Below, one piece after another: positions 33,824 to 43,103 of a stretch of 64,000 nt of DNA (positions are counted from its first letter, which is position 1; the number at the start of each line of letters is the position of its first letter). The stretch spans positions 124,001 through 188,000 of the forward strand of contig NZ_QFZZ01000006.1 in assembly GCF_005233515.1 (NCBI RefSeq), written 5' to 3'. This stretch comes from Pseudomonas sp. CFBP13508. GTDB lineage: Bacteria > Pseudomonadota > Gammaproteobacteria > Pseudomonadales > Pseudomonadaceae. The notes beneath the pieces were generated by a model. It was not told where the DNA came from, ran no database searches, and saw nothing but the letters and a program-made list of their open reading frames with translations. The translations under genes and the position numbers were made by a program.

Positions 33824-36406
33824 TTATATCCGGTTCTTCAGTGCATAGAGCATTTCCAGCGCACGGCGTGGCGTCATGTCGTCCAGATCCACTTTCGCCA
33901 ATTCGTCCAGCACCGGATGCGGCAGCGAGGCGAACATGTCGCTTTGCTGTGGCGTCGACGGCTTGCCCTTTGCAGCCGGTTTCGGCGCTTCGTGGGGCAG
34001 GGCGGTGTCTTCAAGACGGCTCAAATGCTCCCGTGCTCGCAGGATCACTTCGCTCGGCACACCCGCCAGTTGTGCCACCGCCAAGCCATAGCTCTGGCTG
34101 GCAGGCCCAGGTAGGACGTGGTGCAGGAACACGATCCGTTCGTTGTGCTCGGTAGCGTTAAGGTGCACGTTAGCTACAAGGGGTTCGGCTTCCGGCAGCA
34201 CCGTCAGTTCAAAATAGTGGGTGGCGAACAGGGTGTAGGCGCGCAGATGAGCCAAGCGCTCGGCCGCCGCCCACGCCAGCGACAGACCGTCGAAGGTGCT
34301 GGTACCGCGCCCGACTTCGTCCATCAGCACCAGGCTGCGCTCGGTGGCGTTGTGCAGGATGTTGGCGGTTTCGCTCATCTCGACCATGAAGGTCGAGCGA
34401 CCACCGGCGAGGTCATCGCTGGAACCGATGCGGGTGAAAATCCGGTCCACCAGCGACAGCTCGCAACTGGCGGCCGGCACGAAACTGCCGATATGCGCCA
34501 GCAGCACGATCAAAGCGGTTTGCCGCATGTAAGTGGATTTACCACCCATGTTCGGGCCAGTGATGACCAGCATGCGCGTGTTGTCGTCCAGGCTCAGGTC
34601 GTTGGCCACGAACGGCGTGGTCAGCACTTGCTCGACTACCGGGTGACGACCCTGAGTGATGCGCATGCACGGCTCGCTGACGAACCGCGGGCAGTTAAGG
34701 TCAAGGTTCAGCGCGCGCTCGGCAAGGTTGCTCAGCACATCCAGCTCGGCCAAAGCGCCGGCGGTGTCCTGCAACGGCGGCAACTGGCTGATCAAGTCTT
34801 CGAGCAGCGCTTCATAAAGCATCTTTTCCCGAGCCAGCGCGCGACTCTTGGCCGACAGCGCCTTGTCTTCGAATTCTTTCAGCTCGGGCGTGATGAAACG
34901 CTCGGCACCTTTGAGCGTCTGCCGGCGGATGTAGTCAGCGGGCGCCGATTCAGCCTGCTTGCTCGGCAGCTCGATGAAGTAGCCGTGGATACGGTTGTAG
35001 CCGACTTTCAGATTGGCCAGACCGGTGCGAGCCTTCTCCCGGGCTTCCAGATCGATGAGGAACTGACCGGCGTTTTCGCTCAGCGATTGCAGTTCGTCGA
35101 GCTCACTGTCGTAACCGGTTTTCAGCACACCGCCGTCACGGATCACCGCAGGCGGATTGTCGATAATGGCTTTGGCCAGCAGCGCCGCCAGTTCCGGGTA
35201 AGTGCTGGCGGTGGCCGCCAGATGTTGCAAATGCGGCGCTTCCAGATCAGTCATCGCCACTTGCAGTTCGGGCAGCGCGCCGAGTGCATCGCGCAGACGC
35301 GCAAGGTCACGCGGCCGCGCATTGCGCAGGCCGATCCGCGCCAGGATTCGCTCGATGTCGCCGATTTCCTTAAGCTGCGGTTGCAGCTTTTCGAAGCGGT
35401 AACCGTCGAGCAGGCAACGGATCGACGTCTGGCGGGCGAGCAGTACCGTCAGATCGCGCAGCGGCCGATTCAGCCAGCGAGTCAGCAAGCGACTGCCCAT
35501 GGCGGTCTGGCAACGATCGACCACCGATTGCAGAGTGTTGTCGCGACCACCGGCCAGATTGGTGTCGAGTTCCAGATTGCGCCGGCTGGCGCCGTCGAGC
35601 ACCACGGTGTCATCGAGACGTTCGTGACGCAGGCTGCGCAAGTGGGGCAGGGCGGTGCGCTGGGTTTCCTTGGCGTAGGCCAGCAGGCAGCCGGCAGCGC
35701 CGATGGCCAGAGTCAGGTTTTCGCAGCCGAAGCCTTTCAGGTCTTGGGTGGAAAACTGCTGGCAGAGACTTTTCAGCGCCGAATCACGCTCGAAATCCCA
35801 CGGCGCGCGACGGCGTACGCCACGGCGTTTTTCCGCCGGCAGGTCTTTTGGCCAGTCATCCGGAATCAGCAATTCCACCGGGTTGACCCGCTCCAGTTCC
35901 GCCAGCAGGTTTTCCCAGCCTTTGATCTCGAGCACGGTGAAGTTGCCGCTGGTGATGTCCAGCACCGCCAGACCGAACAGGCGCTCATCGCCCAATACAG
36001 CTGCAATCAGGTTATCGCGGCGTTCATCCAGCAGCGCCTCGTCGCTGACTGTCCCCGGCGTGATGATCCGTACGACCTGGCGCTCCACCGGGCCTTTGCT
36101 GGTGGCCGGGTCGCCGACCTGCTCGCAAATCACCACCGACTCGCCGAGCTTGACCAGTTTCGCCAGGTAACCTTCCGCCGCGTGGTAAGGAATCCCACAC
36201 ATCGGAATCGCCTGACCCGCCGACTGCCCGCGCGCGGTCAGGGTGATGTCCAGCAACTTGGCGGCTTTCTTCGCATCTTCGTAGAAGATCTCGTAGAAAT
36301 CGCCCATGCGATAGAACATCAGCTGGTCCGGGTGCTGATTCTTCAGGCGCCAGTATTGCTGCATCATCGGAGTGTGGCTGGATAGATCGGAAATTGGCTT
36401 ATTCAT
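33824..36406 (-). CDS. mutS: DNA mismatch repair protein MutS
   Basis: MutS recognises mismatches and small loops and recruits MutL. The start at 36406 gives a protein of 860 residues with the conserved early segment [17 protein letters not shown]. The mismatch-contacting [12 protein letters not shown] (Phe-x-Glu) is at about 33-45. The Walker A is [15 protein letters not shown], and [16 protein letters not shown] contains the Walker B and signature. The frame stays open for 45 codons upstream, but that part is not MutS-like. No Shine-Dalgarno precedes the ATG. Phage DNA begins close to its 5' side, so its native promoter may be altered. Confidence 0.97.
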
Positions 36407-36606
36407 CAGTAGGTTAGGAGGGTACGCTGAAAAAAATGGGGCAAATTTGGGGCATTTGACGGCACGTGGATTACAAAGACCCAAATCGTAAGATTCTGTA
36501 TTTAAGGGTATCACGTCGTGATGCCCTGCCCTCAACGCCAAGTACAGTGGTGAGGATCAGCTCGGCATGGTATTAATGTGCCATTGTTCATATGGAGGGG
36601 TTAGGC

Positions 36607-37812
36607 ATGAAGGATGTGTTCTCTAGTCATTTCGCTGATGACGCTGAACGACGCGCAAAATTATGGCAAAACTGCTTTTTTGTTTTTGATACAAACGTCC
36701 TAACCTCAGTATATAAACGATCTGATGAAGCGCGAGATGCGCTCTATAAAGTGATTGCTTCCCTCGGTGACCGTTTATGGATTCCATATCAAGTAATCTA
36801 TGAGTTGCTCGATAACCGCGCTTCAATTGCTCATGCACAAGCCGGATTATACACAGCAGCCGTAGGTAGCCTGACTTCGGTACTTGATAATTTCGATAGC
36901 GCAACGAAACATCCTTTTTTGCCTGAGAGTCTGCATAAGGAATTTGTTGAGGTTTCTAATAAAGTCATTGCTGAGCTTGAGGCTAAGCGTGACTTTCACG
37001 AATCTCGACTGACCGCGGATGATGTGAAGTCTTCGCTTTCTGAAATGTTGATGGGCAAGGTAGGGGCTCGGTATTCCGAAGAGCAATTGAGAGCTGTTGT
37101 AAAAGATGGAGAGGTTCGGTATGCGAATAGAATTCCTCCTGGCTTCGAAGATGTTGGAAAACACAAAGGCTCTACCGTTTTTAGTGATGTATGCAAACGT
37201 TATGGTGACTTGATTATTTGGAAGCAAGTTATTGAAAAAGCTAAAGCGGTTAACAAGCCCGTCATACTGGTGACGGGAGAGCAGAAAGACGACTGGTGGG
37301 ATAGGCAAGGAGGCAAGACGATTGGACCATTGCCGCGCTTAATCGAAGAATTCTCAGAGGAGACTGGACAGGATTTTTTTCTGTATAGCCACCACCAATT
37401 CCTCGATTTCGCTAATACTTACTTGGAACAAACCACATCCCCAGAGGTTATTGATGAAGTGAGAGAGGCTGCCTTGGATGACGCCGCCGAGTGGAAGATT
37501 ACGTTCGATAATTCCTCAAAACACACCTGGGCTCATGCCATAGGTGAAGAGCTAGATTTTGATGAGATTAATACTGACGCGATCACTAATCCTTATAATA
37601 ATCCTGTTCCTAGTGATGTTGCTCTCGCCTATGCGCAGTTAATAGCAACTCAGCGAGCGTATAATAATTCGATTTCTGCTAGGTCTCCTAGTGATCCACG
37701 AGAAGTCCGCAGAAGAAAGCGTGAGGCGGAAAGACTGGTTGCTGAAATATACGAAGAGCAAAAGCGCTTGTTCGCCTCTAAAATGGGGAAGAAGGACGGT
37801 GGTGGTGACTAA
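36607..37812 (+). CDS. PIN-like (PIN_8-type) putative ribonuclease, prophage-end cargo
   Basis: PIN-fold proteins are metal-dependent nucleases, usually RNases. The 401-residue protein shows FFVFDTNVLTSVYKRS with the first acid (Asp28), VIYELLDN (Glu66), RYGDLIIWKQVIEKAK (Asp201) and ILVTGEQKDDWWDRQGG (Asp228/229), the spacing of the PIN-like family seen in defence-associated proteins. A charged helical C-terminus follows. GGAGGGG at 36594-36600 sets the ATG at 36607; an ATG at 36592 overlaps that site and is less likely. The gene is visibly AT-rich against mutS. It is convergent with the integrase and overlaps it by 4 bases. No antitoxin partner is visible. Role inferred: phage-borne defence or toxin. 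Confidence 0.8.
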   Translation: MKDVFSSHFADDAERRAKLWQNCFFVFDTNVLTSVYKRSDEARDALYKVIASLGDRLWIPYQVIYELLDNRASIAHAQAGLYTAAVGSLTSVLDNFDSATKHPFLPESLHKEFVEVSNKVIAELEAKRDFHESRLTADDVKSSLSEMLMGKVGARYSEEQLRAVVKDGEVRYANRIPPGFEDVGKHKGSTVFSDVCKRYGDLIIWKQVIEKAKAVNKPVILVTGEQKDDWWDRQGGKTIGPLPRLIEEFSEETGQDFFLYSHHQFLDFANTYLEQTTSPEVIDEVREAALDDAAEWKITFDNSSKHTWAHAIGEELDFDEINTDAITNPYNNPVPSDVALAYAQLIATQRAYNNSISARSPSDPREVRRRKREAERLVAEIYEEQKRLFASKMGKKDGGGD

Positions 37813-39062
37813 ATTAAGGGTTTTGCTAATTTTTTAATATTGTGCCAGATAAGTTCAAGTTCTTGGGGGGATTCATCGTCCATCCATTTCGCGTAGACTT
37901 CCACGAGCATAGTGAAGTCTTTGTGACCCATCTGTTTCGCAATGAACGCCAGATTTCCGCGTGCAGTCAGGCACCAGCATGCATATGTATGTCTGGTCTG
38001 ATAGGGCCGACGCGGGCGTATCTCAGAGCGTTTTTGTACGGCGGCCCATTTGGTATTCCATGATGTCGGGACGTACCAGTGATTGATGATTTTCTTTCGA
38101 GCCTGCGTGGTCGGAGACAGCAATGGCGTTACCGTTTCCTGCCTGCTCTCATGCCGATTCATATAAATCTCGATAGTCCTCGGTTCATGGTTTTCGACGA
38201 GACCGATAAGGCTTTTGCAAGCATCGAGGGCTGGTGGCATCAAAAATACGGTGCGGGGCTTACCAGTTTTGGGGACTTTGAAGGTGCCGTCTGCAGTGAT
38301 CGCTCTGGTTATGTGTAGCTGCCCGGACGCCAGGTCAATATCCTCCACCGCCAGCCCGCATAATTCTCCGGGTCTAAGTCCTGTGTAAACGGCGAGTGTG
38401 ATCGCAGCCGAATCCTGAACGTGTAAACAGCCCTTATTTATCAACTGGTCGAACTCTGCCTTCGTCAGGGGATCTGGCTCACGTCCGATCATTGCGAAGC
38501 GGACGCAAGCCGCCGCCAACCCCTCACGGCAATATCTGTTGTCTTCACACCACGCTAAGAAGCCGGCGAAAGTCGCCAGGTAATGGTTCGCCGTCGACGG
38601 CGCCCTGGTGGCGATGAGCTGAGTCCTCAATCGCTGGATATCTTCGGGTAATAGGACGCCCGCCAAGCGTTCCGAGCCGAGCAGATCGGCGCAGATATCC
38701 AATGCGTAGCCGTATTTTTCTTCGGTCATCGGAGTTATGTCGACGGCCTTCAGCGGCTTGTAACGTTCCATCAACGCCCCGATCCGCTCGTCTTTTACCG
38801 TGGTGTAGTTGGTCGCATTCTTTGAGTTCGGGAAGTGGCGGCCGTATTCAAAATGTCCCGTCTTGATCTCGTGAAGAATTGCCGCCCTGAGTAGGGCGGC
38901 ATGCTTGATGTTGGCTTTGGTCACGGGCAGGCCAAGGGTTTCGCGGCAGCGAATTCGCCGCCACATGAATACGACGCGAATGCTTCCGCCGTGTATTTCA
39001 ATCCCTTTGTGTTTAGCCAGCTCCGCTTCTAGGCCGCTTGCTGAGGTGCGCTCTCGGCCCAC
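37809..39062 (-). CDS. int: Tyrosine-type phage integrase
   Basis: Site-specific recombinase of 417 residues for integration and excision. The N-terminal arm-binding domain (IEIHGGSIRVVFMWRRIRCR, DUF3596-like) and a SAM-like core-binding domain (about 90-190) precede the catalytic domain. That domain has Arg230 (YTGLRPGE), Arg357 in PYQTRHTYACW, His380 (MGHKD) and nucleophile Tyr390 (EVYAKW). The first box-II position is Tyr rather than His, as in related phage integrases. GTG start at 39062. It overlaps the excisionase-like gene upstream by 34 bases and ends against the PIN gene. Confidence 0.94.
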   Translation of the reverse strand: MGRERTSASGLEAELAKHKGIEIHGGSIRVVFMWRRIRCRETLGLPVTKANIKHAALLRAAILHEIKTGHFEYGRHFPNSKNATNYTTVKDERIGALMERYKPLKAVDITPMTEEKYGYALDICADLLGSERLAGVLLPEDIQRLRTQLIATRAPSTANHYLATFAGFLAWCEDNRYCREGLAAACVRFAMIGREPDPLTKAEFDQLINKGCLHVQDSAAITLAVYTGLRPGELCGLAVEDIDLASGQLHITRAITADGTFKVPKTGKPRTVFLMPPALDACKSLIGLVENHEPRTIEIYMNRHESRQETVTPLLSPTTQARKKIINHWYVPTSWNTKWAAVQKRSEIRPRRPYQTRHTYACWCLTARGNLAFIAKQMGHKDFTMLVEVYAKWMDDESPQELELIWHNIKKLAKPLI

Positions 39063-42013: not shown

Positions 42014-42098
42014 TGTTGAGATTTTGCTTTGCGCGTTCTAGATTGACATGGCGACCGCATTCTTCGTTTCCACTCCCAACCTATCTAGGGCTAACAAA

Positions 42099-43103
42099 AT
42101 GACGTTACCAGGTGAGAAGCTCATTATCCGAATATGGGAATCAGTCGCGGATAAAGGCATAGGTAGTATTTTCAGACCAGCTCAGATTAGGCGTGAAGGT
42201 TTGGCAAATATTGAAGTTCGTCGTGCTGAGCAGTTAGCGTTAGCTCAAATGGAACGTGAAATTCAAGAAATTCGCAATGGCACCAGAGAGCTATCGGATT
42301 TTTCTTTGAAGCTTCCCTTTGCTGATGAAAGAAGAGTCAAGAGTAATCTTCGCGTGGAGCCAGTTATCAATACTGCCACTTTGATTGAAAAAGTTAGTTT
42401 GCAGGGGATGGCTGATAGTCTTCAAAAAGAGGTCAATATTACAAAGGCTTTGATCTATGCTGAGGAATCAGTAATGCAGGATGATGCGGAGCCAAGTGAC
42501 GAAAAAGTTGAAGACGACTGGATTTATCGCTGGAAAGACTGTGCTAGCCAAATTTCATCAGATGACATGCAGAGGCTCTGGGGGCGGTTGCTCGCGGGAG
42601 AGGTTAAACAACCCGGAGCTTATTCTCTGCGTTGTCTGGAATTCGTGCGAAATTTATCCCAGAGGGAGGCAAAACTTATAGAGAGAGTGTTAAGGCTCGA
42701 TTTGGATGGGGCTATTTGGTCAGGTTTTGAAGTTGAGGACGGCGCGCTGCGCTATGCAGAATACTTAGAGCTGGAAAGCTTGGGAATTTTGACTGGTGTT
42801 ACGGGAAATATTTCTAATAATATTACTACTCATGAGCCTGGTGTTAAGTGGATTCGGTTCTTGCGATCTCATAAAAAAGGATTGTTGATCACGCATAGCG
42901 ATCTCAATGCTACGTTAAAAATCAAGGGATATGCAGTCTCCGCACTCGGCTTGCAAATGAAGAGTCTGGCGGAGCTTGAATGTGATGAGAAATATTTGAG
43001 AAAATTAGGCGAGTTCGTGAAGGAACAAGGTTTTTCAGTTGAAATTGTTGATTATTTGCTAAAGGATGGCTACTACATGTTCGGCAATGCAATAGAGTTG
43101 TAG
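42099..43103 (+). CDS. DUF2806-family protein in the immunity region
   Basis: A 334-residue protein from the ATG at 42099 (TAGGG upstream). Its central domain (about 140-190) has DDWIYRWKDCASQISSDDMQ followed by RLWGRLLAGEVKQPGAYSL, the DUF2806 core. No transmembrane segment. The N-terminal third is helical and charged. The gene is AT-rich compared with the adjacent phage genes and lies tail to tail with the repressor gene (17-base gap), the place where lysogen-expressed cargo is common. The biochemical function of DUF2806 is not known to me; superinfection exclusion or defence is inferred from location only. Confidence 0.75.
   Translation: MTLPGEKLIIRIWESVADKGIGSIFRPAQIRREGLANIEVRRAEQLALAQMEREIQEIRNGTRELSDFSLKLPFADERRVKSNLRVEPVINTATLIEKVSLQGMADSLQKEVNITKALIYAEESVMQDDAEPSDEKVEDDWIYRWKDCASQISSDDMQRLWGRLLAGEVKQPGAYSLRCLEFVRNLSQREAKLIERVLRLDLDGAIWSGFEVEDGALRYAEYLELESLGILTGVTGNISNNITTHEPGVKWIRFLRSHKKGLLITHSDLNATLKIKGYAVSALGLQMKSLAELECDEKYLRKLGEFVKEQGFSVEIVDYLLKDGYYMFGNAIEL

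Follow-up and report, generated by a model that had tools for sequence, protein, structure and literature searches.

The window, a stretch of 64,000 nucleotides from the genome of Pseudomonas sp. CFBP13508 (G000), contains a prophage gene for a PIN_8-family protein whose C-terminal tail matches the NDPR-type PNPase-binding motif of the host's own RNase E. Judged by sequence comparison, this motif copy is the most specific feature of the protein, and one that the original prediction of a lysogen-expressed PIN-like RNase had overlooked. With the NDPR-type tail, docking on PNPase becomes a likelier mechanism than action as a free RNase. Our best reading, to which we assign a probability of roughly 0.57, is that of a prophage endoribonuclease docked on host PNPase and serving most likely in defence. 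PIN_8 nucleases, prophage cargo slots and elements in mutS are all of kinds already known; searches of open-licence papers turned up no prophage nuclease bearing a copy of the PNPase-docking motif of RNase E.

The PIN_8 gene and its product

The gene occupies positions 36607–37812 on the plus strand and encodes 401 residues, a frame that was present as claimed. An alternative ATG lies upstream at 36592 and would give a protein of 406 residues. We preferred the start at 36607 because a Shine–Dalgarno-like GGAGGGG stands just 5' of it and the aligned homologues begin there too. The product matched the Pfam family PIN_8 (PF18476) with an E-value of 7.3e-55 and 186.8 bits against a gathering score of 26.1, and its residues 25–245 aligned to positions 2–227 of the 227-position model. 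The Pfam match showed that the 401-residue PIN_8 gene is real and not a chance frame. The acidic residues proposed to be spaced as in PIN folds stood up to alignment in all but one case: D28, E66, D201 and D229 were invariant in sets of 19 and 41 aligned sequences, whereas D228 varied.

The AF2 model had a mean pLDDT of 84.1, with values of at least 95 in 20 of the first 29 ten-residue blocks and lower values in the tail. It places the PIN domain at about residues 22–275 and shows the tail that follows as helical, with low to moderate confidence. Structural comparison with VIA-align gave the best Z-score, 9.8, for the archaeal entry 1ye5, followed by 9.7 and 9.4 for chain K of two RNA-exosome structures (5vzj_K and 5k36_K), which we take to be Rrp44/Dis3 with its PIN domain. 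The top eight rows (Z 8.4–9.8) included four VapBC entries and the two exosome chains; several unrelated helical rows further down reached Z of about 7.7. A Foldseek search of the AF2 model against the PDB returned no match at E ≤ 0.001, and the PIN chains were separated only in the second look with VIA that followed it. The protein resembles VapC toxins in its PIN fold (Z 7.5–9.3) and differs from them in its larger size, in a long helical insertion and in that no antitoxin partner was found. The anticipated PIN family and fold are thus borne out by the Pfam match and by the PIN-type chains at the top of the VIA list. From its family, predicted fold and acidic residues, the protein is probably a PIN-fold, metal-dependent endoribonuclease.

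The defence-database check that accompanied the original prediction came back empty for the protein itself, as PADLOC-DB 2.0.0 gave 0 families at E up to 10. NCBIfam assigned it no family, RNase E/G models were absent from it (Pfam and NCBIfam, E up to 1), a sequence search of the PDB yielded only noise, and the INPHARED phage records held no match. A search of IMG/VR with the protein alone found no relative; alignment queries did, and one scan returned 110 PIN_8 relatives, 80 of which were kept. Relatives are present in viral contigs and in plasmids, those on plasmids being at most 37.9% identical among the matches listed (best 20 of 60 records). At the viral PIN_8 loci (L092–L176), the tails appeared by eye to be highly variable, with coiled-coil-like and other ends.

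The gene lies within a prophage of about 44 kb integrated in mutS, between attL (core at 36366–36377) and the tyrosine integrase gene int (37809–39062, minus strand). This is where it had been expected, at the attachment-site end. The two genes are arranged tail-to-tail and their 3' ends overlap by 4 bases. The gene also proved AT-rich against its neighbours, as described, with a GC content of 44.8% compared with 53.7% for int and 61.6% for mutS; the prophage stretch 39063–71364 (extended coordinates) has 59.2%.

An RNase E-type motif in the C-terminal tail

The tail motif, ARSPSDPREVRRRKREAERLV, spans residues 358–378 (37678–37740, plus strand) and lies at the start of a helix (residues 364–397) modelled by AF2 with moderate confidence. 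When the PIN protein was searched against its own genome, the second place, 75% identical over 24 residues, fell within a protein that scores 940.3 bits, above the cut-off of 908, for the NCBIfam equivalog ribonuclease E; there the motif lies near the C-terminus. The RNase E stretch GRAPNDPREVRRRKREAERL and the PIN-protein stretch ARSPSDPREVRRRKREAERL (residues 358–377) are identical at 17 of 20 residues, and the window copy has SDPR where RNase E has NDPR. Only 5 of the 17 identical residues use the same codon, which argues that the motif is kept at the protein level and was not recently copied. The core GRAPNDPREVRRR was found in all 22 RNase E loci read. With the C-terminal scaffold of Pseudomonas RNase E the window protein shares the core [NS]DPREVRRR[KR]R near the C-terminus; unlike RNase E, it has no RNase E catalytic domain, and its motif tail is set on an unrelated PIN nuclease.

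In P. aeruginosa, the NDPR motif of RNase E is described as binding PNPase directly, and point mutations in it as leaving PNPase unable to bind and no longer recruited into the foci of RNase E (PMC11964227). The P. aeruginosa motif, NDPREKRRLQREAERLA, differs from that of this host, and it is from P. aeruginosa that PNPase binding is known. Given the identity of the motif, we infer that the tail of the window protein may bind PNPase.

The match stands well apart from controls. Three motif tails were shuffled 2000 times each, and no shuffle equalled the observed score. Of 112 natural PIN_8 tails, the three motif tails scored 92–110 and the next best 49; against the P. aeruginosa NDPR peptide (PMC11964227), the same three scored 67–73, the next 36 and the best shuffle 32. 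The tail scoring 36 (L097) lies above the shuffled maximum of 32 and was not counted as a carrier. Compared with PNPase-site peptides from E. coli, Caulobacter and Anabaena, the PIN_8 tails all stayed within the shuffled maximum (29, 28 and 25, respectively), and for this reason we dropped the idea that other PIN_8 tails copy the motifs of other hosts.

Genome scans gave a similarly narrow distribution. The motif query found an RNase E-sized frame in every one of 22 genomes; outside RNase E it matched the PIN proteins of G035 (E 1.8e-8), the window's genome (4.3e-6) and G304 (3.4e-4), with no further match under E 0.17. Of 129 genomes of the genus, an even draw (G000–G128) without G304 and G643, 127 gave a match and 2 gave none. 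A second match occurred in three of them, namely the PIN proteins of the window's genome and G035, and a match at E 0.04 in G050. In both scans the best match per genome was taken as RNase E by its frame length (in the larger scan mostly 999–1188 residues; shorter in G021, G075 and G107), and the window genome's own copy was confirmed by NCBIfam; the genus, family and relatives draws of genomes overlap. Two DNA patterns for the motif gave 0 matches in IMG/VR, and both require N before DPR, so that the SDPR form of the window would escape them.

Four PIN_8 proteins carry the motif (those of the window, G035, G643 and G304), three of them with an open frame. Their motifs are 67–91% identical and the adjoining linkers 16–41%; within the motif, half or more of the synonymous sites differ among the four carriers. 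Such conservation beyond a diverged linker would be expected if the tail is loose and its short motif functional. G035 and G643 show the same mutS–PIN–int order, with integrases 93–95% identical. The G304 copy is frameshifted and lies at mutS (L084:8959–10174), beside a gene that by eye is transposase-like, and the 20 kb read at this locus contained no match to the window's integrase.

The window protein is like other PIN_8 (PF18476) members in its sequence family and acidic residues and unlike them in its RNase E-type motif tail, found in 4 members only; the C-terminus of these proteins looks as if it were an exchangeable targeting part. One relative, of G369/P. cichorii (L001 and G369 being counted as one strain), is 64% identical and lacks the motif, as does that of G582, 55% identical over the PIN part. 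Because of these two, and because the G304 copy is frameshifted, the motif is evidently not essential to the family. PIN_8 relatives occurred at E ≤ 1e-12 in 22 of the 398 genomes of the genus draw, which makes the motif-bearing form a minority. Two tails were rejected as carriers: that of G369/P. cichorii aligns to the motif and is only 9–19% identical there to the four carriers, and that of L104 bears a weak resemblance (E 0.033). The 17–19 kb read around the P. cichorii copy held neither mutS nor the window's integrase.

Slot cargo and candidate roles of the putative nuclease

To avoid bias, the slot between int and mutS was surveyed using the integrase as seed. Of 74 loci, 14 with no more than 600 bases beyond int were set aside, leaving 60 informative ones, among which near-identical loci were kept; gaps were measured from match ends. 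Detecting integrases by regular expression was too strict (7 of 85 loci), and BLAST and Pfam were used instead; the neighbour scan with Pfam covered 39 of 79 listed proteins. A PIN_8 gene filled the slot at 16 of the 60 loci, always on the strand opposite to int and with a gap of −4 to 54 bases. The remaining 44 were without PIN_8, and in 11 of these a mutS frame lay almost directly beyond int. At 15 viral PIN_8 loci, the adjoining integrase was 75–95% identical to that of the window and the PIN protein 38–55% identical over the matched part. Slot contents across the IMG/VR loci L177–L250 include many unnamed sets of one to four genes.

A first scan of slot contents at 34 loci covered 68 of 78 ORFs of at least 80 residues, omitting seven plus-strand ORFs, two minus-strand ORFs of L191 and the PIN protein of L184. 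Since 12 of the 34 loci had no mutS in reach, and some ORFs there may fall outside the slot, we rescanned the 44 minus-strand ORFs in the 22 slots bounded by both int and mutS, with one plus-strand ORF omitted. By Pfam, these 44 include four DUF4325 STAS-like proteins and two TacA-type antitoxins, as well as an AAA protein, a DUF4435 protein and a metallo-beta-lactamase. A D12 methylase, two DUF4325 proteins and one TacA dropped out of the slot count with the rescan. PADLOC identified a neighbouring pair in the L217 slot as AriA and AriB, as in PARIS, and a protein in the L234 slot as LmuA/MBL-like; at E up to 1e-8, the PARIS-like pair was the only one found for the 44 ORFs among the matches listed (25 of 51 families). 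Weak DrmA matches in 3 of the 68 ORFs of the first scan (best E 2.8e-8) were absent among the matches listed for the rescan, whose limit of 1e-8 would exclude them. Most slot ORFs had no family, and most scanned slot genes had no known-defence match. Similar integrases, diverged PIN proteins and varied contents are, at the level of sequence, the pattern of swappable cargo, and the int–mutS slot offers a defined place in which to seek further defence genes of Pseudomonas prophages.

In our preferred reading, the PIN domain would cut RNA as an endoribonuclease of the prophage, as the computed family, predicted fold and acidic residues suggest, and the C-terminal RNase E-type motif would dock the protein on host PNPase. 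RNA cut by the PIN domain would then be passed to PNPase, a 3'–5' exonuclease, so that the two form a small second degradosome. The protein would be expressed in the lysogen and would defend it against other phages. An anti-phage role is plausible by position, and we regard defence as likeliest because the swappable slot elsewhere carries a PARIS-like pair and TacA-type antitoxin genes, though few known systems. The eukaryotic RNA exosome has a PNPase-like ring to which the PIN endonuclease Rrp44/Dis3 is physically coupled. Its likeness to the arrangement proposed here, a PIN endonuclease coupled to a PNPase-like ring, is an analogy only, and the tether is unrelated. Type III-A CRISPR–Cas of Staphylococcus epidermidis, which uses PNPase and RNase J2, is similar in being a defence that leans on host degradosome nucleases; the proteins are different, and the sections of that report consulted mention no borrowed RNase E motif (PMC6447361).

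If docking is true, a phage-carried enzyme makes use of one of the short linear motifs of the bacterial degradosome, and a single brief conserved segment would explain how an antitoxin-less nuclease could be aimed and kept under control. Phage and defence proteins would then be worth scanning for copies of host RNase E motifs. PNPase might even be both control element and guarded target: docking would keep the nuclease harmless until an incoming phage upset PNPase or the RNase E scaffold and thereby freed or activated it. This elaboration is tentative and we consider it unlikely; if true, it would make host RNA decay the partner as well as the guarded target of a one-gene defence system.

The protein could also be an ordinary PIN_8 RNase of the abortive-infection or stress type, its motif serving as a basic, RNA-binding tail with PNPase uninvolved. 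The motif is indeed arginine-rich, and 109 of the 112 PIN_8 tails do without it, many of them being coiled-coil-like or unrelated by eye. However, the match extends to the non-basic P, D, P, E and V of a specific protein-binding motif, the motif is conserved while the linker diverges, and within the 129 genomes it is limited to RNase E and these PIN proteins, save for the one match at E 0.04. We find this explanation rather unlikely, though the likeliest of the rivals. A different use of docking would be as a degradosome decoy: by vying with RNase E for PNPase, the tail would slow host mRNA decay or steer it in the prophage's favour, and certain phage or host transcripts may be the targets of the PIN domain. 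The same motif would be expected to find the same partner, and mobile elements could conceivably profit from stabilised RNAs of their own; yet intact PIN acidic residues would be superfluous in a pure decoy, and the slot behaves as exchangeable cargo, which makes a decoy improbable in our view.

Least of all do we favour the toxin of a toxin–antitoxin addiction module. PIN domains are typical of VapC toxins, and TacA-type antitoxins occur in the slot of other loci. Here, however, no separate ORF of at least 60 residues lies between mutS and the PIN gene, in agreement with the earlier remark that there was no obvious antitoxin. Downstream of the PIN gene lies int, and the matched VapC chains have about a third of the protein's size, so that a role as toxin appears very improbable.

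Integration into mutS

The attL core, ATCGGAGTGTGG, lies within codons 10–14 of mutS (33824–36412, minus strand), and the identical 12 bases at positions 204547–204558 of contig C6 of the same genome were taken as attR. When both prophage ends are compared by eye with the beginning of mutS in relatives, integration within these codons is suggested. At the other end of the prophage, some 44 kb off, a mutS-type upstream region has been retained together with a short stub of mutS. It follows from this integration point that the present 5' end of mutS would be supplied by the prophage: the ORF is intact, with first codons and upstream region that are now prophage-derived, and excision could change mutS expression. 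A mobile element in Vibrio mutS is described as bringing a new promoter and translation start, and is thus alike in supplying the mutS 5' end; its topic is mutation rate, and cargo genes are not mentioned in the sections consulted (PMC5296598). The mutS/cinA region is also reported as a known prophage site in P. fluorescens (PMC2647930).

The divergent intergenic region (36413–36606) between mutS on the minus strand and the PIN gene on the plus strand belongs to the phage's side of the attL core and presumably holds the promoters of both. A consensus promoter scan gave no site within it, and overall the promoter and terminator scans gave no more than chance would. Near attL is a pair of TGGGGCA repeats whose starts, at 36437 and 36448, are 11 bases apart (36437–36454, plus strand), and a similar pair with the same spacing occurs near the other prophage end (80408 and 80419 in extended coordinates); these pairs are possible arm-type sites of the integrase, which by Pfam combines Arm-DNA-bind_2 and Phage_integrase domains. 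Other prophage genes encode a repressor-type Peptidase_S24 protein, a VapE-like protein, a GpA terminase and a portal protein. A gene for a DUF2806 protein (Pfam E 1.5e-26) at 42048–43103 adjoins the Peptidase_S24 gene, is convergent with it, and is possibly a further lysogenic cargo gene.
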